A stretch of 64,000 nt of DNA from Antedon mediterranea (taxonomy: Eukaryota; Echinodermata; Crinoidea; Comatulida; Antedonidae), in contig NC_092673.1 in the NCBI RefSeq assembly GCF_964355755.1, positions 15,877,001-15,941,000 of the forward strand. Direction: 5' to 3'. Made by a program: the position numbers and the translations under genes. The notes beneath the pieces are model-generated. The model was not told where the DNA came from and made no database searches. It worked only from the letters and a program-made list of their open reading frames with translations. How positions within the stretch are numbered: position 1 is the first letter of the stretch; the number at the start of each line of letters is the position of its first letter. This document shows, one piece after another, positions 13,801 to 41,075 of the stretch.

Positions 13801-16800
13801 TGGGACATAAAGCCGTTGGTCCCGTGTACTTAACAGTGTACGTTAAAGAACTTGGTACACTCCTGGTGTGCTGATCTGGTCTGCACTGCTGGCTGCCATG
13901 GGTCCGTGGAGGGCCTAATCCAAATTTCCTCAGTTTCCAGTTAAGTTTGAGGGAAAATATTAATACCTTTAACGGTTAGCTCCTGATCTGGATTAAAGTC
14001 CGCTAGTGTGAACCAGGCCAGGGGTTTTGATTGAACTCTTTTTAGAGTCTAGCAGCAGCTGAAGTGATGATAAATAGGCCTTAATAGCCTGGTTCATGAT
14101 ATGTTTAAATCGCCTTTTGTAAAAACCCTAATATATTAAAGTCATCAATATAACACAGAATTTGAGCTCTGCAATTACAAGTTGTAATTGCAGAATTAAA
14201 TAATTAAAAGTCATGAATTGTAATCACACTTACATCTCTCCTGAGTTATTATCACTGAGTGCTGGGTCAACTGATAATATTCCTACAAACTCTATCCCAT
14301 CATTCACTTTAAATCCCTCAAAATTGTCATAAATCTGAAAAGAAAAAAAAAGAATATATGTGAAAGTATTATTTGGAAATTGTCTATAACAATCATTAAC
14401 ACAAATATTATAGATTAGATAAGCCAAGAAACTCATATTGCATTTTAAATGTGTGGTGCAATGATGTAGTTGTTATCAATAAATCAAAAAGTAATCATCT
14501 AATGGTACTAAAACTGTATGCGGAAATTACAAATTTGAAATTTAAACTTATGCAGTGGATGAATAAAATAATTTTAAATTAATAAACATTATCAGATTGA
14601 GTATTCTATTTGTCTCCATTTTGTATTTTATAAGGACGTACTTATTTCTTATAAAACCAGGGCAAACTTTGAGTTTAAATAAAGAGCAAAGAAAGTTATA
14701 CAGTAATACATTTTAATTACTCCATTTATATAGATTAGAAATACTGTTTATTTGCCTGCTCCTGTATGTTCCGTAAAACATTTTTTATTGAGGGCGCTTT
14801 TGATAAAGGAACAGGATTCCATATGTACAGTGTTGAAACAATTTTAATTTCATTTTAGTAGTTTTTTTCATTAATAGTTTTATACTGTTAACAGCTGGTT
14901 TTAGAATAGGCCTCTCATAACAGTGCAAGTAAATGTACAGCTTAATATTTTATATGATATACAGATGATGCTCTTATAAATGAAATTACAATTTTTTTAT
15001 AGTTAATTTTTCACAAGAGAGAGTAATAATTCATTGCCATATTTTATGCCTTTTAAGTTGTGGAAAAAAAAATCATTTCATTTGTTCCATATATATAAAG
15101 TGAATGCAATAACAAGTTAAATATACTTTAACAAGACAAGCTGGGCCAGTTTCATCTGCAAGTGGAAAATTAAGATCTTGAATGTGGCCAGTTATTCCTT
15201 TCATTTCATCTCCTTTTTCTTCATCTTTCTTTGCTTTTTTCTCATCATTAGCATCTCCGGCTGCTGACTCATCTTCCATGGGCACGGCTGGACTAGCTTT
15301 TGTTGAAAGATCAAGACCACAACCAGACGACATGGTTAGTTGGTCCTCGTCAAGTCTTCTCTTGGGTCGAGAGTTATGACAAGTAGTGGACTGCTTACAT
15401 TTGCTTTGATCCGCATAAATCTGTCAGTTTTTCATTAAGAAAAACAACAATTTTATTTTTCTTTTTGTATCCATAAAAGAAACATTCTTAATTATTATTT
15501 TACAAAGGCAATGTTTTAAAATTTAAACTGTTAAAGGTCATCTTGATGGCAGAGAGTACTGTACTGTGTATTTTAAACTTGAAAATTAAGACTAAAAAGT
15601 ATTTTAAGTAAATTTTCTTTTGGATGATCCAAAAGAAAATTTACTTAAAATACTATACAGTGATCCAGATGAACCTTTTTACTAATAAGACTAAAAAGGT
15701 TCCCACCAGGACACAACACAAGCGCAATGTAGTTTGACTCACTACGACATGATGGATCAACTTACAATGTTTTGTGATTGGTCAACTTGTGCCTACATCA
15801 TTTTGTGAGAACCAGTCTATACATATAGTGGATACTAACCGGGCAGTTTTACTTACTTATCAGCCAAAGCTAAGGTTTGGGCTATTCTGAAAAATATTTT
15901 TGTAATGGCCTCTTTAAAGATTTATTGTCCCTCTGAAAAAAAAGTTTTTGTTGAATATGCCATTTTAATGTCACTAATAATAGTTATTCACTTTGACCAA
16001 AAATTGGATGTGATTGACATTATTAAAACTGCGAAATGGTCTATTCAATGTCTTTTTAAGTTAATCTCCATTTTTCATGTTTTTGGGGGACAATATATCT
16101 TTAAATCAAAATGTCATTAGAATAAAGTAGTGATTTTTTTCTCTTCAAATTTAATTTCATTGAGTGCTTTTTTTCTTCAATTTTAAAATAAATTGTAGTA
16201 TCTCAATAAAATGTCAGCTGACGGTTAAAAAGTAATAACATTATTGTGATGATTAATTTGAAAATGCTGTCGCTCACAGCTAGGAAGCCAACTACAAAAC
16301 TGTTCATAATAACTGACAACCGTGAAAAGTAAAGAACAATATACCAAAAAAAGAAGGATACATCTTTGACCCATTGATTTTCACCGGGTAGAGGTACACA
16401 ATAAAGCGTCTGCCGATCCATCGGCACTGTGGTGGCAGCATTCATGTCGATATGCTGATGTGTAGAGCATTCTGCTATATCTCTGTACATTCCACATTTT
16501 ATTTCCTGTATAAAAAAAATACAAAAATCTGTTTTTATTATCTTTTTTTTATTATATAGTTTTTAAACTATTTATTTGTACATGTGTTTAATATTGTTAT
16601 CAGTGACTAGTAAGGTAAATTTCAAGAGTTTGATCAAACCAGTTATGTAGGGGAATTAATAAAATATACAGCCATACTTGCAGTAGCAGTACCTAGTAGA
16701 AGATAGAGGAGCATGGAGCTGTACGCCTCTGGTCTGTAATTTATGTATTGGAAAGCGAGTTGGTAAAAGTACCTAGTAGAAGATAGATGCGGCAAATCTT

Positions 16801-35229: not shown

Positions 35230-35917
35230 TACCATATCGAACACAAGTCCCAATCATCTGATAACCTTATCAGATGCTCCAAGAACAAAGGAAAATTGTT
35301 TAATGTTATTAATAAGCTTTTGAAGGGCACGTCTGTAATTTCATATCCTACTCATGAAAATTTACCTGATTTGATCGAATTTTTTTCTAACTATTTTTTT
35401 GATAAGATTGCTAAAATATGAAATGAACTTTCCAAAACTGTTCTTTACCTCCGCCAATTACATATCCACCTGTTAATTGTTCATTTTCTGCTTTTACTCC
35501 TGTTGATTGCTCAACTGTTAGTGTTAATGAAATTTGTCTCTTCGTTATCCTCTGCCTCCTGTTCCCTTGATCCTATTCCAACAAATGTGTTCAAATCATG
35601 CCTTACTTCATTTTTAGATCCACTCCCAGTTATAGTTATCCATTATTTCAGGAACCGTTCCTGAAATCTTTAGAACTGCCGTTATTAAACCTATTCTAAA
35701 GAAGTCATCCCTTGACTCCAATTTGTTAAAAAATTTCCGACCAATATTAAATCTTTACTTCCTTGGAAAGCTCCTTGAGAAAATAGTTTCAAATCAATTC
35801 ATATCTAATCTCTACAAATTCAATTTTTTAAATCCATTTCAATCTGCATATAGAGTTGGTCACAGTAAAAACTGTCACAATGAAACTGCCCTCATCAAAA
35901 TTCATAATGATATTGCC

Positions 35918-36185
35918 ATAGCCATAACATCCGCATGGGTTCGAGGCTCACTCACTCCATGGTTCTGGTGGTAGAACAAGTCTTCTCGGATAAGGACTAT
36001 AAACCGTAGGTCCAGTGTACACATCTAGCTCGTGTGTACTTTAAAGAACCTAGTACATCTTTCAAGACGAGTAGGGGTTTACCCTGGTGTATTAGTACAT
36101 CACAGCCACTGATCACCAACTGGGCCCTCTGGGAGACCAGTAATTGACTGAAGAGGTTACCCAGTATAAATATATATTTCAATTT
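35918..36185 (+). mobile_element. tRNA-SINE inserted in the L2 ORF
   Basis: From GGGTTCGAGGCTCACTCACT (B box) through TTCTGGTGGTAGAACAAGTC, AGGTCCAGTGTACACATCTA and TTTAAAGAACCTAGTACATC it matches 24205-23910 in the opposite orientation. It splits the LINE between KIHNDIA and IVCSLDRKRA. The tRNA A-box end is missing. Confidence 0.8.
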
Positions 36186-36705
36186 CAATTGTCTGTTCCT
36201 TGGATCGAAAGCGTGCTGTTGCACTCGTTATGCTAGACCTTTCATCTGCTTTCGACACTGTTGATCACAACATCCTTCTTTGTCGCCTTTCAGATTACTA
36301 TGGAGTGTCTAATAGATTGGTTTCGATCTTATCTGACTGGCCGGACCCAGTGCGTAGAAATCAATGATACTAGATCTGCTCCTAAGAGCCTTGAATGAGG
36401 AGTTCCACAGGGTTCTATCCTGGGGCCCTTCCTTTTTACTCGGGGTACCCGAGTCTAGGACTTACTCATTTTCTCCTCTTCTTCCTCCATCTGGACACTA
36501 TTGAGTAAAAAGTGCGATTTTTTAAGTACTACTCCTCCCTTATTCGTTGTAGTATTGAGCTGGGATTTGGCCCATACATACTACAGGGACATGTCCTCAA
36601 AGCTATAGAGCCGGATTTTTAATTTTTTGTTAATTAATTTGTTTAATTAAGAATCCACAATGTGTGACACACACCACAGCGTTATGTAGTTATATGGTTA
36701 TATGC

Positions 36706-36777
36706 GGATTCTTGGCGTAGTGGTTATCACGTTTGCTTAACACGCAGAAGGTACCTGGTTCGAGCCCGGACGAAACC
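36706..36777 (+). tRNA. tRNA-Val-like sequence, type alpha copy 1
   Basis: GCGTAGTGGTTATCAC (D arm), TTTGCTTAACACGCAGA (anticodon arm with AAC) and CCTGGTTCGAGCCCGG (T arm) follow metazoan tRNA-Val-AAC. The acceptor arms (GGATTCT and CGAAACC) pair poorly. Likely a mobile tRNA-derived sequence, not a working gene. Confidence 0.4.
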
Positions 36778-36862
36778 TTTTTTTTAAACGTTATGGTGAA
36801 AAGTACTCTATACGCAATATGATAATTATACACAGTATATCTTATTTTTATTATTTTTTTAA

Positions 36863-39312
36863 AGATGTATTGTCCCCCTGAAAAAAAATTTTTTTTCGAT
36901 ATTTTTGTTGAATAGGCCATTTTAATTGCACATAAAAGTTATTCACTTTGACCTCAATTTGGATTGAAAAAAATAATTTTTTACACGGGAAAATCGCAAT
37001 TTAATGCAAAAATTAACCAACCGGAAGCTATTTGTCTGGAAGACAAATGTGTTCCGGTTTAATTTAACCCTTGACCTGAGTTAGCTCATAAATATTCATA
37101 TCGTATGGATACATCGTGTGGATGATGACGCTTTCCAAATCAACAGCCAACAACAACGATAGCAATGCCATGCGTGCGAGAGAGTCGAGTAGTGATGCGA
37201 GACGAATCTTGAAGAAAACACGAAAACTATAGCTAGCAGAATGCTAAGTTAGAATTACAGTTGGTAACTTTGATGTTGAATCTTATTCATTTAGGTGAGT
37301 TTTTGTTTCGCTAACAGGAGAGGCCTAGCTAGGCCTAGGCCCGAATTTGCTGCTACTGTACTACTAGGCCTAGGCCCTAGTACTACTAGCACTGACAGTC
37401 TCGAGTAGCCTAACTGCTGCCTACTTCTGTCTCTAGAAGTAGAGTGTAGTAGTAGGCCTAGGCAGTACACTGCTAGCTAGGGCTACAGTAGACCACCACC
37501 AGAAGGGATGTATTTTTGTTTTAATCATGATGAATTGGTTTAATTTTTAAAGATTTCAACTATCTATTCGGCAGTGAAAATTAAAAAAAAAAGAAAATCT
37601 AAATATTGTTTTGGATGTTTTACTGATGCAATATTTTAAAAATATTTTCTGTATCAAATGCAATAGGTTCAAATTAACATTCCGCAAAATGCAGATATTT
37701 TGACACAAATTTCTTCTTTTTTTTTTAGGTTGATTGATTGAACAATAAGAGCAAGTAGTGAGAAACATAAAATGTATCGTACAGTGGCAACATTCACAAT
37801 TTATTGAAACGTTTCTTACTATTAAAATGACACTTTGTAATGGATGTGAGCGATCTTAGAAGACTATAGCTGTCGTAATTACTGCCACAATCAACACATT
37901 GATAATTAGTAGACAAATTGACACAAAAAACAATACAGGAATTCAATAAGATATACTGTATATATATTTTATTAACTCCTTTTGCACTGTAATATTTACA
38001 GTAAAATTATGAAGTGTAAGTAAATTTGAAGAATTTATCCTGTGTACTGTTGTAGTAGTTTTTTTTATTTATTGAATGTTATGTTTACAAAATAATATAC
38101 TGTACATATAATACAAAAAAAATTATACAATATTTTACAAGCTGGACAAGAACATATTGGCCGAATGCAGCAGGAGAGTCAGAAATATTTTTCCTGCAAT
38201 ATCCAATCATATTCCAATACCGAGTCTATCATTGTTGTCTTTGGGTGACCTCTGTTCCAGTCTTCATCAGCTCAACGTCTTTAAAAAAAGTAAAAGCAAA
38301 GTATGAAAATATGGAAAAAATATATCATGCATATTTAGTGCAAAATTGGGCTAGTGAAATTGCTTACTTTGACATAGTCAAATAAGTATACTACCTTTCT
38401 ATGGTAATTAAAACACATTACTTATAATGTTATAACTTATAAAAATAGAAAATAAATATTTGACTTACTACAGTACAGAGAACATTTGTTTGTGTTGTAA
38501 AATGGCTAAGCTGGCTTTTCCCCTCTGTCTACTTGTACAGTGCTGCTGGAAGGTTCTCAATTTCAGGCTTGTATTGCAACCATTTTCCCTGAAAAATGTT
38601 TGTTTTATTTTTATCATAAACATTAGTTAAACAAGCTTCAACTGTAAATATATATGGTACAGCAAGCTGGCTGTATTTTCGGAATGTAGCTAAGATTGAT
38701 GGCATATAGCCTAGGCCAGTCTATGAAGAGTACAAACAATGTATAGGGCCTAGCTGGGCATCTTCTGCAGGGACCCGATTGTCACAGTCTGCTTGCTACT
38801 AGCCTAGTAATATGCAGCAGCATTTATTAATTATTCTAGGCCTAGCCCTGAACTGAAAAAATCCCAGGCTAAGTTAATTAATTTACCTTCCTGTTATTAT
38901 TCCGTTATATATATTATTATATTTAAAATAACCGTCTAGGCCTACATACCGACAAATTAACAGCTCAGCTTTACATATTTATACGATCAGCCATCCCAGG
39001 GAAACCCACAGTCGCGTCGATCTCTGGTGGTGTTGTTGTACCATACAACGTGCATCGTCCATTGTTAGATCAGATCTCTGCTGTGTGGATGCTCATTAAC
39101 ATATCATGCATATGTATGAGTTAGCTCTACCGGCCTAATTTCTGAGCCGATGAGTTCGAAAAAATGGTAAATTTATTTTGATTTTTTTATAAGCGAAATC
39201 AATATTTTTTTCGGATTCGGAAGTGAATAACTTTATGTTAACTACAAAACGGTCTATTCAAAATTTGATTTTTTTCATCTTTATTTTTCATTTTTTGGGG
39301 GACAATACATCT
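36863..39312. mobile_element. TTAA element of 2450 bp
   Basis: The ends AGATGTATTGTCCCCC and GGGGGACAATACATCT are exact inverted repeats flanked by TTAA (36859-36862 and 39313-39316). The empty site is preserved at about 39830 as TTTTTTTAAATACTTATT. Subterminal parts share GTTATTCACTT and related words with the 183- and 339-bp copies. The interior holds an AGGCCTAG cluster (37319-37490) and no recognisable transposase, so it is non-autonomous. Confidence 0.85.
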
Positions 39313-39447
39313 TTAAATACTTATTTTGTGTAATCGGTAATTATCACTTTTACACATTGTTTATTTTTCTTTGTGCTTATTACCATATTTATTTGTAATT
39401 TAAATGGATTAAAAAACTTTCTGTAACCCACATTTTTAGTGTAAGTG

Positions 39448-39518
39448 GGTTTCGTAGTGTAGTGATTGTCAAGTCTGCTTAACACGCAGAAGGTCCCGGT
39501 TAGAGCCCTGGCGAAACC
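39448..39518 (+). tRNA. tRNA-Val-like sequence, type beta copy 1
   Basis: It has a GGTTTCG/CGAAACC acceptor stem (7 of 7 pairs), a TCTGC-TTAACAC-GCAGA anticodon arm (AAC) and a defective T arm (GGTTAGAGC, so the B box is damaged). 71 bases. Probably a pseudogene. Confidence 0.45.
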
Positions 39519-39680
39519 TCGGGTTTCTTTTACTTTATGGTGAAATAACTGTATACGTCTGTATACAGCTTCTTTCGCTGTACCCCGAGTATTGCACATT
39601 CGTGCTTTTTTGTTAATTAATTTGTTTAATTAAGAAGCCACAATGTGTGACACACACCACAGCGTTATGTAGTTATATGC

Positions 39681-39752
39681 GGCTTCTTGGCGTAGTGGTT
39701 ATCACGTTTGCTCAATACGCAGAAGGTACCTGGTTCGAGCCCGGGCTAAACC
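39681..39752 (+). tRNA. tRNA-like sequence, type alpha copy 2
   Basis: Like 36706-36777 but with TCAATAC in the anticodon loop, which would read AAT. The T arm CCTGGTTCGAGCCCGGG is good. The acceptor GGCTTCT/CTAAACC pairs badly. Confidence 0.4.
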
Positions 39753-39965
39753 TTTTTTTTTAAACTTTATGGTGAAAAGTACTGTATACGCAATATGATA
39801 ATTATACACAGTATATCTTATTATTATTATTTTTTTAAATACTTATTTTGTGTAATCGGTAATTATCACTTTTACACATGTTTATTTTGCTTTGTGCTTA
39901 TTACCATTTATTTGTAATTTAAATGGATTAAAAAACTTTCTGTAACCCACAATTTTAATGTAAGA

Positions 39966-40036
39966 GGTTTCGTAGTGTAGTGGTTGTCAAGTCTGCTTAA
40001 CACGCAGAAGGTCCCGGTTCGAGCCCTGGCGAAACC
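39966..40036 (+). tRNA. tRNA-Val(AAC)-like sequence, type beta copy 2
   Basis: GGTTTCGTAGTGTAGTGGTT closely follows metazoan tRNA-Val. The 7-bp acceptor and 5-bp anticodon stems are perfect and the loop has AAC. The T arm CCCGG-TTCGAGC-CCTGG has one mismatch and the molecule is a base or two short. It is the most tRNA-like of the four. A T-run terminator (TATTTTTC) follows. Confidence 0.5.
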
Positions 40037-41075
40037 TATTTTTCTTTAACTTTCTAACTGTATTACGTCTGTATACAGCTTCTTTCGCTGTACCCCGAGT
40101 ATTGCACATTCGTGCTTGTTTCTCTATATATTTCCCCTCTCACTGAAATTATTAAAGAATACAATTTACACAACCACCTATATGCTGATGACTTACAGCT
40201 ATGTCGATTTTAGTCCTTCTGAATCTCACGATATAACAACTTGAAAGTTGTCTCTCTAAAATATCATTCTGGCTATCAACCAACATGCTCTTGCTTAACA
40301 ATTCTAAAACCGAATTTATCATTATCACATACAGTACGTTCCAAATTTAATATTCCCTTGATTTCTTTTAATTCCTGTACAATTTTTCCATCACCTTTTG
40401 TTAAAAATCTTGGGGTTTATTTTGATGGATTATTATCCTTCAACAAACATATAAGTCATGTTACAAAAACTACTAACTTCCATCTACATAAACATTGCTT
40501 GCATTCGAAAGTATCTGTCAAAGCGTACTACCTCTACATTAATAAATGCCTCTGTCACTTCTCGCCTTGATTATTGCAACTCTCTTTTTTTTGCCTACCG
40601 AAATCTTTAATGAATCGACTTCAACGTACGGTCTCCAGAACACTGCTGCACGCATTCTAACTCTAGAAGATCCTCACACATATCTCCTATTATAGCCTCC
40701 ATTGGCTACCTATTGACTCCCATATAAAATATAAGATCCTTTTACTAACATTTAAAGCGCTACTTCTTATACAATCTCTTTGATCGTCTTCCCTCCTACA
40801 CCCCTCTTGCTTGTCTTCGTTCGGCTAATCAAAACCTACTACTTGTTCCTAGAATTAACACCAAATCTTATGGACAAAGGTCTTTTATGTTCTCTGCTGC
40901 TTCTCTGTGGAATTCTCTCCCTCGTCATTTTACTAAATCAACTTATTATATTGCTATTTTTAAAAAGAAGTTAAAACGCATCTTTTTAACATCCAATATA
41001 AGCGCCTTTGATTTTTACTTCGGTTTAGTTGATTCTGGCGCTATACAAATACCTAATTATTATTATTATTATTAA

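Follow-up and report, generated by a model that had tools for sequence, protein, structure and literature searches.

The window analysed here is a 64,000-nucleotide stretch of the 354-Mb genome of the crinoid Antedon mediterranea (C4:15877001-15941000). It contains an insertion at 36438-40120 that splits a long interspersed nuclear element (LINE) and carries four sequences resembling valine transfer RNA (tRNA-Val). Self-alignment resolved the insertion into a 185-bp head and two tandem units of ~515-530 bp (Table 1); Tandem Repeats Finder did not report these units (the longest period found was 500). Each unit holds a tRNA-like sequence of type I and one of type II, ~285 bp apart, and is closed by a 3' terminus. 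The two types alternate because two such dimeric units stand in tandem. The element is probably a HINE, a non-autonomous Helentron, with tRNA cargo taken from its host.

An earlier note, made from the letters alone, had described a mobile insertion at 36438-40118. Its start was correct, but the end lies at 40120, and 36863-39312 is a 2.45-kb TTAA transposon that is unrelated to the tRNA-bearing element and split unit 1 by a separate insertion. The 510-550 bp repeats reported in the note are indeed in tandem, although each holds both tRNA types, so that there are only two. The note was also right that the insertion is mobile, but it did not recognise the class, which we assign below to HINEs and Helentrons from the ends, the target, the empty sites and a coding relative.

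Table 1. Features of the insertion and its LINE host, in window positions
Feature	Position	Strand	Basis or remark
Host LINE, left part: reverse transcriptase up to GVPQGSILGPFLF, in-frame stop	35690-36437	+	translated reading
T-run, 5' boundary (target/element Ts)	36433-36437	+	at least 5 T 5' of 37/42 distinct heads
HINE head	36438-36622	+	self-alignment, fold; 370 exact genome copies, control 0
5' palindromic subterminal inverted repeat (subTIR) ACTCGGGGTACCCGAGT (ACTCGGG-GTA-CCCGAGT; 7-bp stem, 3-nt loop)	36438-36454	+	fold
Left part of unit 1, with the type I tRNA	36623-36862	+	92.6% to unit 2 by self-alignment
tRNA-Val(AAC)-like type I, unit 1 (acceptor stem damaged)	36706-36778	+	ARAGORN/RF00005; 28.3 bits
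DNA transposon in unit 1, non-coding, 2.45 kb	36863-39312		terminal inverted repeat AGATGTATTGTCCCCC; target site duplication (TSD) TTAA 36859-36862 / 39313-39316
Unit 1, right part, internal 3'-terminus copy at end	39313-39605	+	91.4% to unit 2 by self-alignment
tRNA-Val(AAC)-like type II, unit 1 (T stem damaged)	39448-39519	+	ARAGORN/RF00005; 42.2 bits
Unit 2, uninterrupted	39606-40120	+	self-alignment, genome search
tRNA-like type I, unit 2	39681-39753	+	RF00005 22.7 bits (lowest); no ARAGORN call
tRNA-Val(AAC)-like type II, unit 2	39966-40037	+	ARAGORN/RF00005; 47.4 bits
3' subTIR GTACCCCGAGT, inverted copy of head start	40090-40100	+	self-alignment; internal copy 39580-39590
3' hairpin GCAC-ATTC-GTGC and terminal TTGTT	40104-40120	+	internal hairpin copy 39594-39605
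Host LINE, right part: SLYISPL...YADDLQL onward	40121-40990	+	translated reading; 40990 is not its fixed end

Scores against Rfam family RF00005, together with ARAGORN, bore out four tRNA-Val-like sequences of two alternating types. Two of the four exceeded the RF00005 gathering score of 29, while the type I sequences stayed below it at 28.3 and 22.7 bits; ARAGORN called three, all with anticodon AAC. In the RF00005 alignments, type I mispairs lie mostly in the acceptor stem and also in the D stem; in type II the acceptor stem is kept, while one mispair falls in the T stem and others in the D stem. The damage noted earlier, to the acceptor stem of one type and the T arm of the other, is therefore broadly right but leaves out the D stems of both. 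Window scores of 22.7-47.4 bits compare with 51.1-65.2 bits for complete genes in a host array and on C6 (see below), and the window sequences fall short of functional tRNA-Val.

Copies, termini and insertion sites

Genome searches with DNA queries scored the best 38-40 candidates, and copy numbers were therefore taken from pattern counts. The 17-bp start of the head, ACTCGGGGTACCCGAGT, had 370 exact genome matches (control, 0), and a 20-bp form with up to three mismatches had 669 (control, 3). A type II pattern with up to two mismatches had 367 matches, a number that may include array genes (two differing positions). Among the best matches, the unit lay at dispersed loci, where the better unit of each copy was 97-99% identical and the other mostly 85-95%, and the heads listed were 95-98% identical. 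Rather than being confined to one place, which the earlier note had named as a result that would speak against it, the insertion thus belongs to a dispersed family of hundreds of copies. Element length could be measured in 19 of 20 fetched regions (L035 was left out because the fetched piece had no tail): 12 elements of 1,197-1,231 bp have two units and seven of 698-710 bp have one. HINE copies without a tRNA part also exist (for example in L010), and one insertion is nested inside another head (L002).

We surveyed the ends in loci L001-L064 and the window, which gave 42 distinct heads and 48 distinct tails. Five to seven T directly precede 37 of the 42 heads; TTTTT occurs at 0.63% of window positions on both strands. 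Before some heads, the Ts come from the tail of a preceding element. The sequence GTGC-TTGTT closes 31 of the 48 tails, of which 32 are terminal, 11 run into a further tRNA unit and five lead straight into a new head. Subterminal inverted repeats are present at both ends of the window element (at 36438, ACTCGGGGTACCCGAGT; at 40090, GTACCCCGAGT, an inverted copy of half of it), and the 3' palindrome has a 4-bp stem 5 nt before the element end.

Empty sites were available in a satellite. The unfilled site AAACAAGTGRACC-TTTTTT-AAAATCAG had 1,587 genome pattern matches, with the T6 form in most of the 100 listed, and filled versions were found in L020, L026 and L031. The T total over both sides is about two to three T higher in the filled sites, with no longer duplication. 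This comparison, which the earlier note had proposed as a way to define the ends, gave a T-run target without a clear duplication. The readings at the LINE junctions of the window fit an insertion site of the same kind. The satellite, with ~261-bp spacing, lies at C1:27.33-27.43 and 28.43-28.52 Mb and at C2:22.16 Mb and serves as a landing site for the family. At C10:9783337-9790994, three element copies (L005-L007) are spaced exactly 3,573 bp apart and share their flanks, which looks like a tandem duplication that includes the insertion.

Coding relative and class of the element

A genome search with the Helitron_like_N profile gave 87 matches, and a subset of their groups was inspected for ends. 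Among the Rep groups inspected, ends matching the family were found in a single group of two copies, L053 and L054. L053 (C7:9356500-9365500, minus strand) runs from TTTTTACTCGGGG to GTACCCCGAGTATTGCACATTCGTGCTTGTT, with head and tail both 93% identical. Its open reading frames (ORFs) encode OTU (489 aa), DUF6570 with Helitron_like_N (924 aa) and PIF1 with Exo_endo_phos (777 aa), and between head and ORFs lie a tRNA I with both promoter boxes and a tRNA II remnant. The Rep region of L054 (C8) is 98.9% identical to that of L053; here the tRNA unit lies 3' of the ORFs and is followed by a second HINE with a variant head. In L029, L030, L010, L060, L002 and L017, the 191-bp head is 92.7-95.3% identical to L053 and the last 47 bp 97.9-100%, while variant heads reach 88%. 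According to the excerpts of PMC4067079 drawn on here, Helentrons are marked by a Rep/helicase that bears an endonuclease at its C terminus, and OTU is among their known extra genes; the coding relative likewise combines OTU, Rep, helicase and endonuclease.

No matching ends were found in the ~50-copy Helitron group whose ORFs are ~3,100 aa long (18 kb and the upstream flank of one copy, and the flanks of four further copies, two on both sides and two downstream) or in the 190-bit Rep group (L049, L050). The same holds for the parts read of the Rep groups at C1:24.45 Mb (5 kb), C3:24.14 Mb (4 kb), C1:6.99 Mb (4 kb) with C8:12.19 Mb (10 kb), and C1:3.14 Mb (10 kb). A 12-bp match, ACTCGGGGTACC, occurs in L051 but does not follow a T-run. 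Distinct from the family of the element, an abundant Helitron group lies at C11:13485001-13503000 (L037, L038) and ~50 other places; many of its copies have open frames of ~3,000-3,180 aa, several copies lie in local clusters, and the 3' flanks are repeat-rich.

As far as sequence can establish them, the termini, the insertion into T-runs, the empty sites and a coding relative with matching ends are demonstrated. For these reasons, we identify the element as a HINE, a non-autonomous Helentron that carries a captured pair of host tRNA-Val sequences and would be moved by Rep, helicase and endonuclease encoded elsewhere. We give this reading a probability of roughly 0.88.

Other classes fit less well. 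Canonical Helitrons have 5' TC and 3' CTRR ends (PMC10701932, in the part used here) and insert between A and T (PMC4067079, likewise in part), whereas the ends here are T-run/ACTCGG and GTGCTTGTT and the target is a T-run. A long terminal repeat (LTR) element was rejected because the repeated units hold the 3' terminus and sit within a distinct head; no LTR-directed search was made. Dimeric tRNA-derived short interspersed elements (SINEs), such as Twin of Culex, have two tRNA-related regions and are thought to be retroposed by LINEs with a TSD. Such a SINE, made by LINE reverse transcriptase from a transcript of RNA polymerase III (pol III), would account for the high copy number and for the presence of A and B boxes in both tRNA-like regions, although boxes alone are not sufficient for a SINE. 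The element shares with Twin the two tRNA-related regions per mobile unit but not its LINE-type retroposition with TSD. Its precise ends lie outside the tRNA part, as a palindromic subTIR at the 5' end and a hairpin with TTGTT at the 3' end (the LINE-likeness of the 3' end was not compared). Moreover, the empty satellite sites contradict a SINE, since no TSD extends past two to three T, the coding element with matching ends encodes Rep and helicase, and the spacer between the tRNAs is array spacer, which is not expected in a mature pol III transcript. An origin as a SINE is therefore extremely improbable.

Origin of the tRNA pair

A host tRNA-Val tandem array of near-identical repeats, with anticodons AAC, CAC and TAC, lies at C10:15.238-15.298 Mb. 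A tRNA-Val(AAC) core pattern of type I with up to one mismatch had 362 genome matches (control, 0); among the 100 listed, 62 were exact, and 41 of these fall within C10:15,237,978-15,282,954. Array-like pairs run on at C10:15.286-15.298 Mb, and a separate tRNA-Val(AAC) trio is found on C6 (L062). We read 5.5 kb of the about 60 kb of array (L061 and L063). L061 contains AAC, AAC, CAC, CAC and TAC genes per ~1.5 kb, and L063 contains two AAC genes. In the 16 array genes called there by ARAGORN, the base after the acceptor stem is T; in tRNA-Val it is usually A.

Alignments between array and element were kept if longer than 60 bp. Unit positions 55-443 are 86-87% identical to an AAC-AAC pair of the array, spacer included, and colinear throughout. 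Since the homology continues from the tRNAs through the spacer to the host array, it reflects descent and not chance. At the level of sequence, a shared origin of cargo and array is established. The earlier note had allowed for a known SINE or LTR family with a chance resemblance to tRNA; a SINE does not agree with the tests made here, nor chance with homology that reaches the host array.

Close homology and a tandem array of near-identical repeats would also be expected had the transposon seeded the array on C10. However, the array has CAC and TAC isoacceptors as well, and its complete genes reach 51.1-65.2 bits, while the window copies score 22.7-47.4 bits and L053, L054 and L057 have one RF00005 match each above the cut-off, at 33.1-41.6 bits. 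HINE heads and tails, looked for separately, were not found in the 5.5 kb of array read, and the captured DNA stops at HINE junctions. An array built from the element is thus very unlikely.

The junctions can be seen in L057, where a HINE tail is followed by array flank, tRNA I, the spacer, tRNA II, array flank again, a variant HINE head and a tail. In L010, L060 and L054, the tRNA part is likewise followed by a variant head. Between L057 and L063, upstream array homology starts right past the tail T-run and downstream homology stops at CGTTTTATT, the start of the second head. As array homology ends at HINE junctions on both sides, two HINE insertions at T-rich sites frame the captured piece. 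Such framing would be expected from rolling-circle transposition of the composite or bypass kind and indicates composite or end-bypass capture; in its excerpted text, PMC4067079 proposes events of this kind to explain DINE-1-linked gene duplications.

The capture may have proceeded as follows. Two HINEs would have landed in T-rich sites on either side of a neighbouring pair of tRNA-Val(AAC) genes in the array. Replication from the upstream HINE would then have run past its own 3' end, copied the tRNA pair and halted only on reaching the 3' end of the second, downstream HINE. The compact window units lack most of this second HINE; its partial deletion would have left the unit of tRNA I, tRNA II and 3' terminus, and skipping of the first terminator would have given two-unit elements like the window copy. 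The spread of these elements would have scattered degraded tRNA copies through the genome, in which the tRNA fold is presumably no longer needed and the pol III boxes are still carried.

Several observations weigh against this reading of the element as a HINE with captured cargo. Five heads out of 42 are not preceded by T5: four variant heads follow CGTTTTATT instead, and the fifth is a duplicate inside L053. One exact-pattern genome search for the intact LINE as an empty site gave 0 matches, as did one exact-pattern search with one junction for a donor locus, that is, an array still with its HINEs. The 3' palindrome, with its 4-bp stem, is shorter than PMC4067079 gives for mite HINEs and lies closer to the element end, and head identity to L053 is mostly under the >95% given there for pairs of HINE and partner (both from the excerpts of that source). 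The PIF1/endonuclease ORF of L053 is out of frame with its Rep ORF, and the coding region of L054 is split into shorter ORFs. It may therefore be that L053 and L054 are relatives in decay and that neither is the active partner.

Role of the cargo, known systems and local context

We compared the cargo with the array consensus of the three L061 pairs, excluding pairs spaced outside 270-310 and one L011 copy. A copy was assigned to its group from a sequence motif or from its locus, and the group names do not strictly reflect where in the element a unit lies. In the unit2 group, tRNA I, spacer and tRNA II differ from the array at 9/72, 27/208 and 3/71 sites; the corresponding values are 8/72, 24/212 and 3/71 in the unit1 group, 9/72, 28/208 and 3/71 in the single group, and 3/72, 31/208 and 4/71 in the 'old' composite group. 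Part of the spacer difference accrued in the array itself, and the comparison is therefore no demonstration of selection. Relative to their own group consensus, the 44 copies of the three main groups differ by 0.4-1.5% in tRNA I and spacer and by 0-0.9% in tRNA II; the six 'old' copies differ by 1.4% in tRNA I, 4.3% in the spacer and 5.1% in tRNA II. At ~1% from consensus, the main groups are young.

The A box fits its consensus in 16-17 of 17 unit1, 19-20 of 21 unit2, all six single and 5-6 of six old copies, and the B box in 13-17 of 17, 17-20 of 21, 5-6 of six and five of six, respectively. The retention of both boxes claimed earlier thus extends to most copies examined, and pol III transcription of the copies is therefore possible. 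The consensus type II sequence of the unit1 group no longer has its T-run terminator.

The tRNA-like sequences are most likely passengers. Their retention for use by the transposon, whether for access of pol III and TFIIIC, for driving or insulating the coding element, or as a fold in rolling-circle termination, would be in line with a type I sequence with both boxes 5' of the L053 ORFs and a unit 3' of those in L054. Consensus-like boxes in most copies point the same way, as does the contrast between tRNA II and spacer in the unit2 group. Yet tRNA I in that group is as diverged as the spacer, and within the three main groups tRNA and spacer diverge alike, as expected for passengers. The youth of the copies accounts for part of the box retention, the lost type II terminator does not fit a use, and neither do HINE copies without a tRNA part. 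We consider such a role unlikely.

Upstream of tRNA I, 8-bp inverted repeats occur in unit 1 (AAGAATCC/GGATTCTT, 36649-36713) and unit 2 (AAGAAGCC/GGCTTCTT, 39632-39688), where upstream DNA pairs with the 5' strand of tRNA I. Among pattern-readable copies (out of 17 unit1, 21 unit2, 6 old and 6 single), the pairing is perfect in 9/16 unit1, 16/18 unit2, 4/4 old and 0/4 single copies, and in the unit1 group both arms are altered together in 9/16. The putative compensatory pair is only partly consistent with these counts, and we put it to no use as evidence. A bolder proposal, also unlikely, is that the Helentron family now uses the captured pair: the A and B boxes would serve coding and non-coding copies alike as a portable pol III/TFIIIC module, and the 5' strand of tRNA I would have been refolded with upstream DNA into the new hairpin AAGAAGCC/GGCTTCTT. 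If true, a rolling-circle transposon would have acquired an RNA-gene promoter and would be seeding pol III sites genome-wide.

Helitrons and Helentrons are known captors of protein-gene fragments. The cargo here is novel, while the transposon class is not new. Known HINEs and Helentrons of the DINE-1 class share with this element the palindromic subTIRs, the 3' palindrome, variable Ts at the ends and a TT or T-rich target; in the excerpts of PMC4067079, the captured gene fragments come from histones and from a putative transmembrane protein rather than from a tRNA gene pair, and the 3' subTIR of mite HINEs lies 38-60 nt from the end, compared with about 20 nt here. Cg_HINE of Crassostrea gigas similarly has HINE ends around tandem central repeats, a T-rich target and no TSD. 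Its central repeats are satellite-like, the word tRNA is absent from PMC7492417, and its authors could not link the elements to an autonomous partner, whereas a coding relative with matching ends was found here. A tRNA-Cys cluster in Arabidopsis, which overlaps annotated Helitrons, also consists of tandem units that link tRNA genes to rolling-circle elements. In the portion of PMC10701932 used, however, no reliable Helitron is predicted over those tRNA genes, while for the present element the ends, the empty sites, a coding relative and the source have been resolved; that 2023 paper terms its own unconfirmed case a potential first. Searches of the Helitron and Helentron literature with tRNA or RNA-gene terms (including PMC10701932, PMC3706591 and PMC7754599, as excerpted; repeat databases and most subscription papers were not covered) turned up no confirmed case in which a non-coding RNA gene was captured. 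The present family is apparently a well-resolved case of such capture by a HINE. As one genome holds the source, the capture junctions, composite copies, a coding relative and the offspring, the end-bypass model can be traced step by step. The family also calls for caution in tRNA annotation: many, probably hundreds, of the tRNA-Val-like sequences of this genome are transposon passengers, some of which pass Rfam or ARAGORN.

Turning to the local context, the HINE lies in the LINE between GVPQGSILGPFLF and SLYISPL...YADDLQL, that is, before the YADD motif, as had been noted. The left part of the LINE seems from its sequence to be itself interrupted near 35930-36190. The 2.45-kb TTAA insert has no stop-free frame longer than 108 codons and accounts for most matches in a genome search with the whole interval. 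At least 27 near-full-length copies (query ~414-2890), 94-97% identical, and further partial ones exist elsewhere. Shorter relatives with similar ends lie in the window near 720-1067 and 15913-16106.

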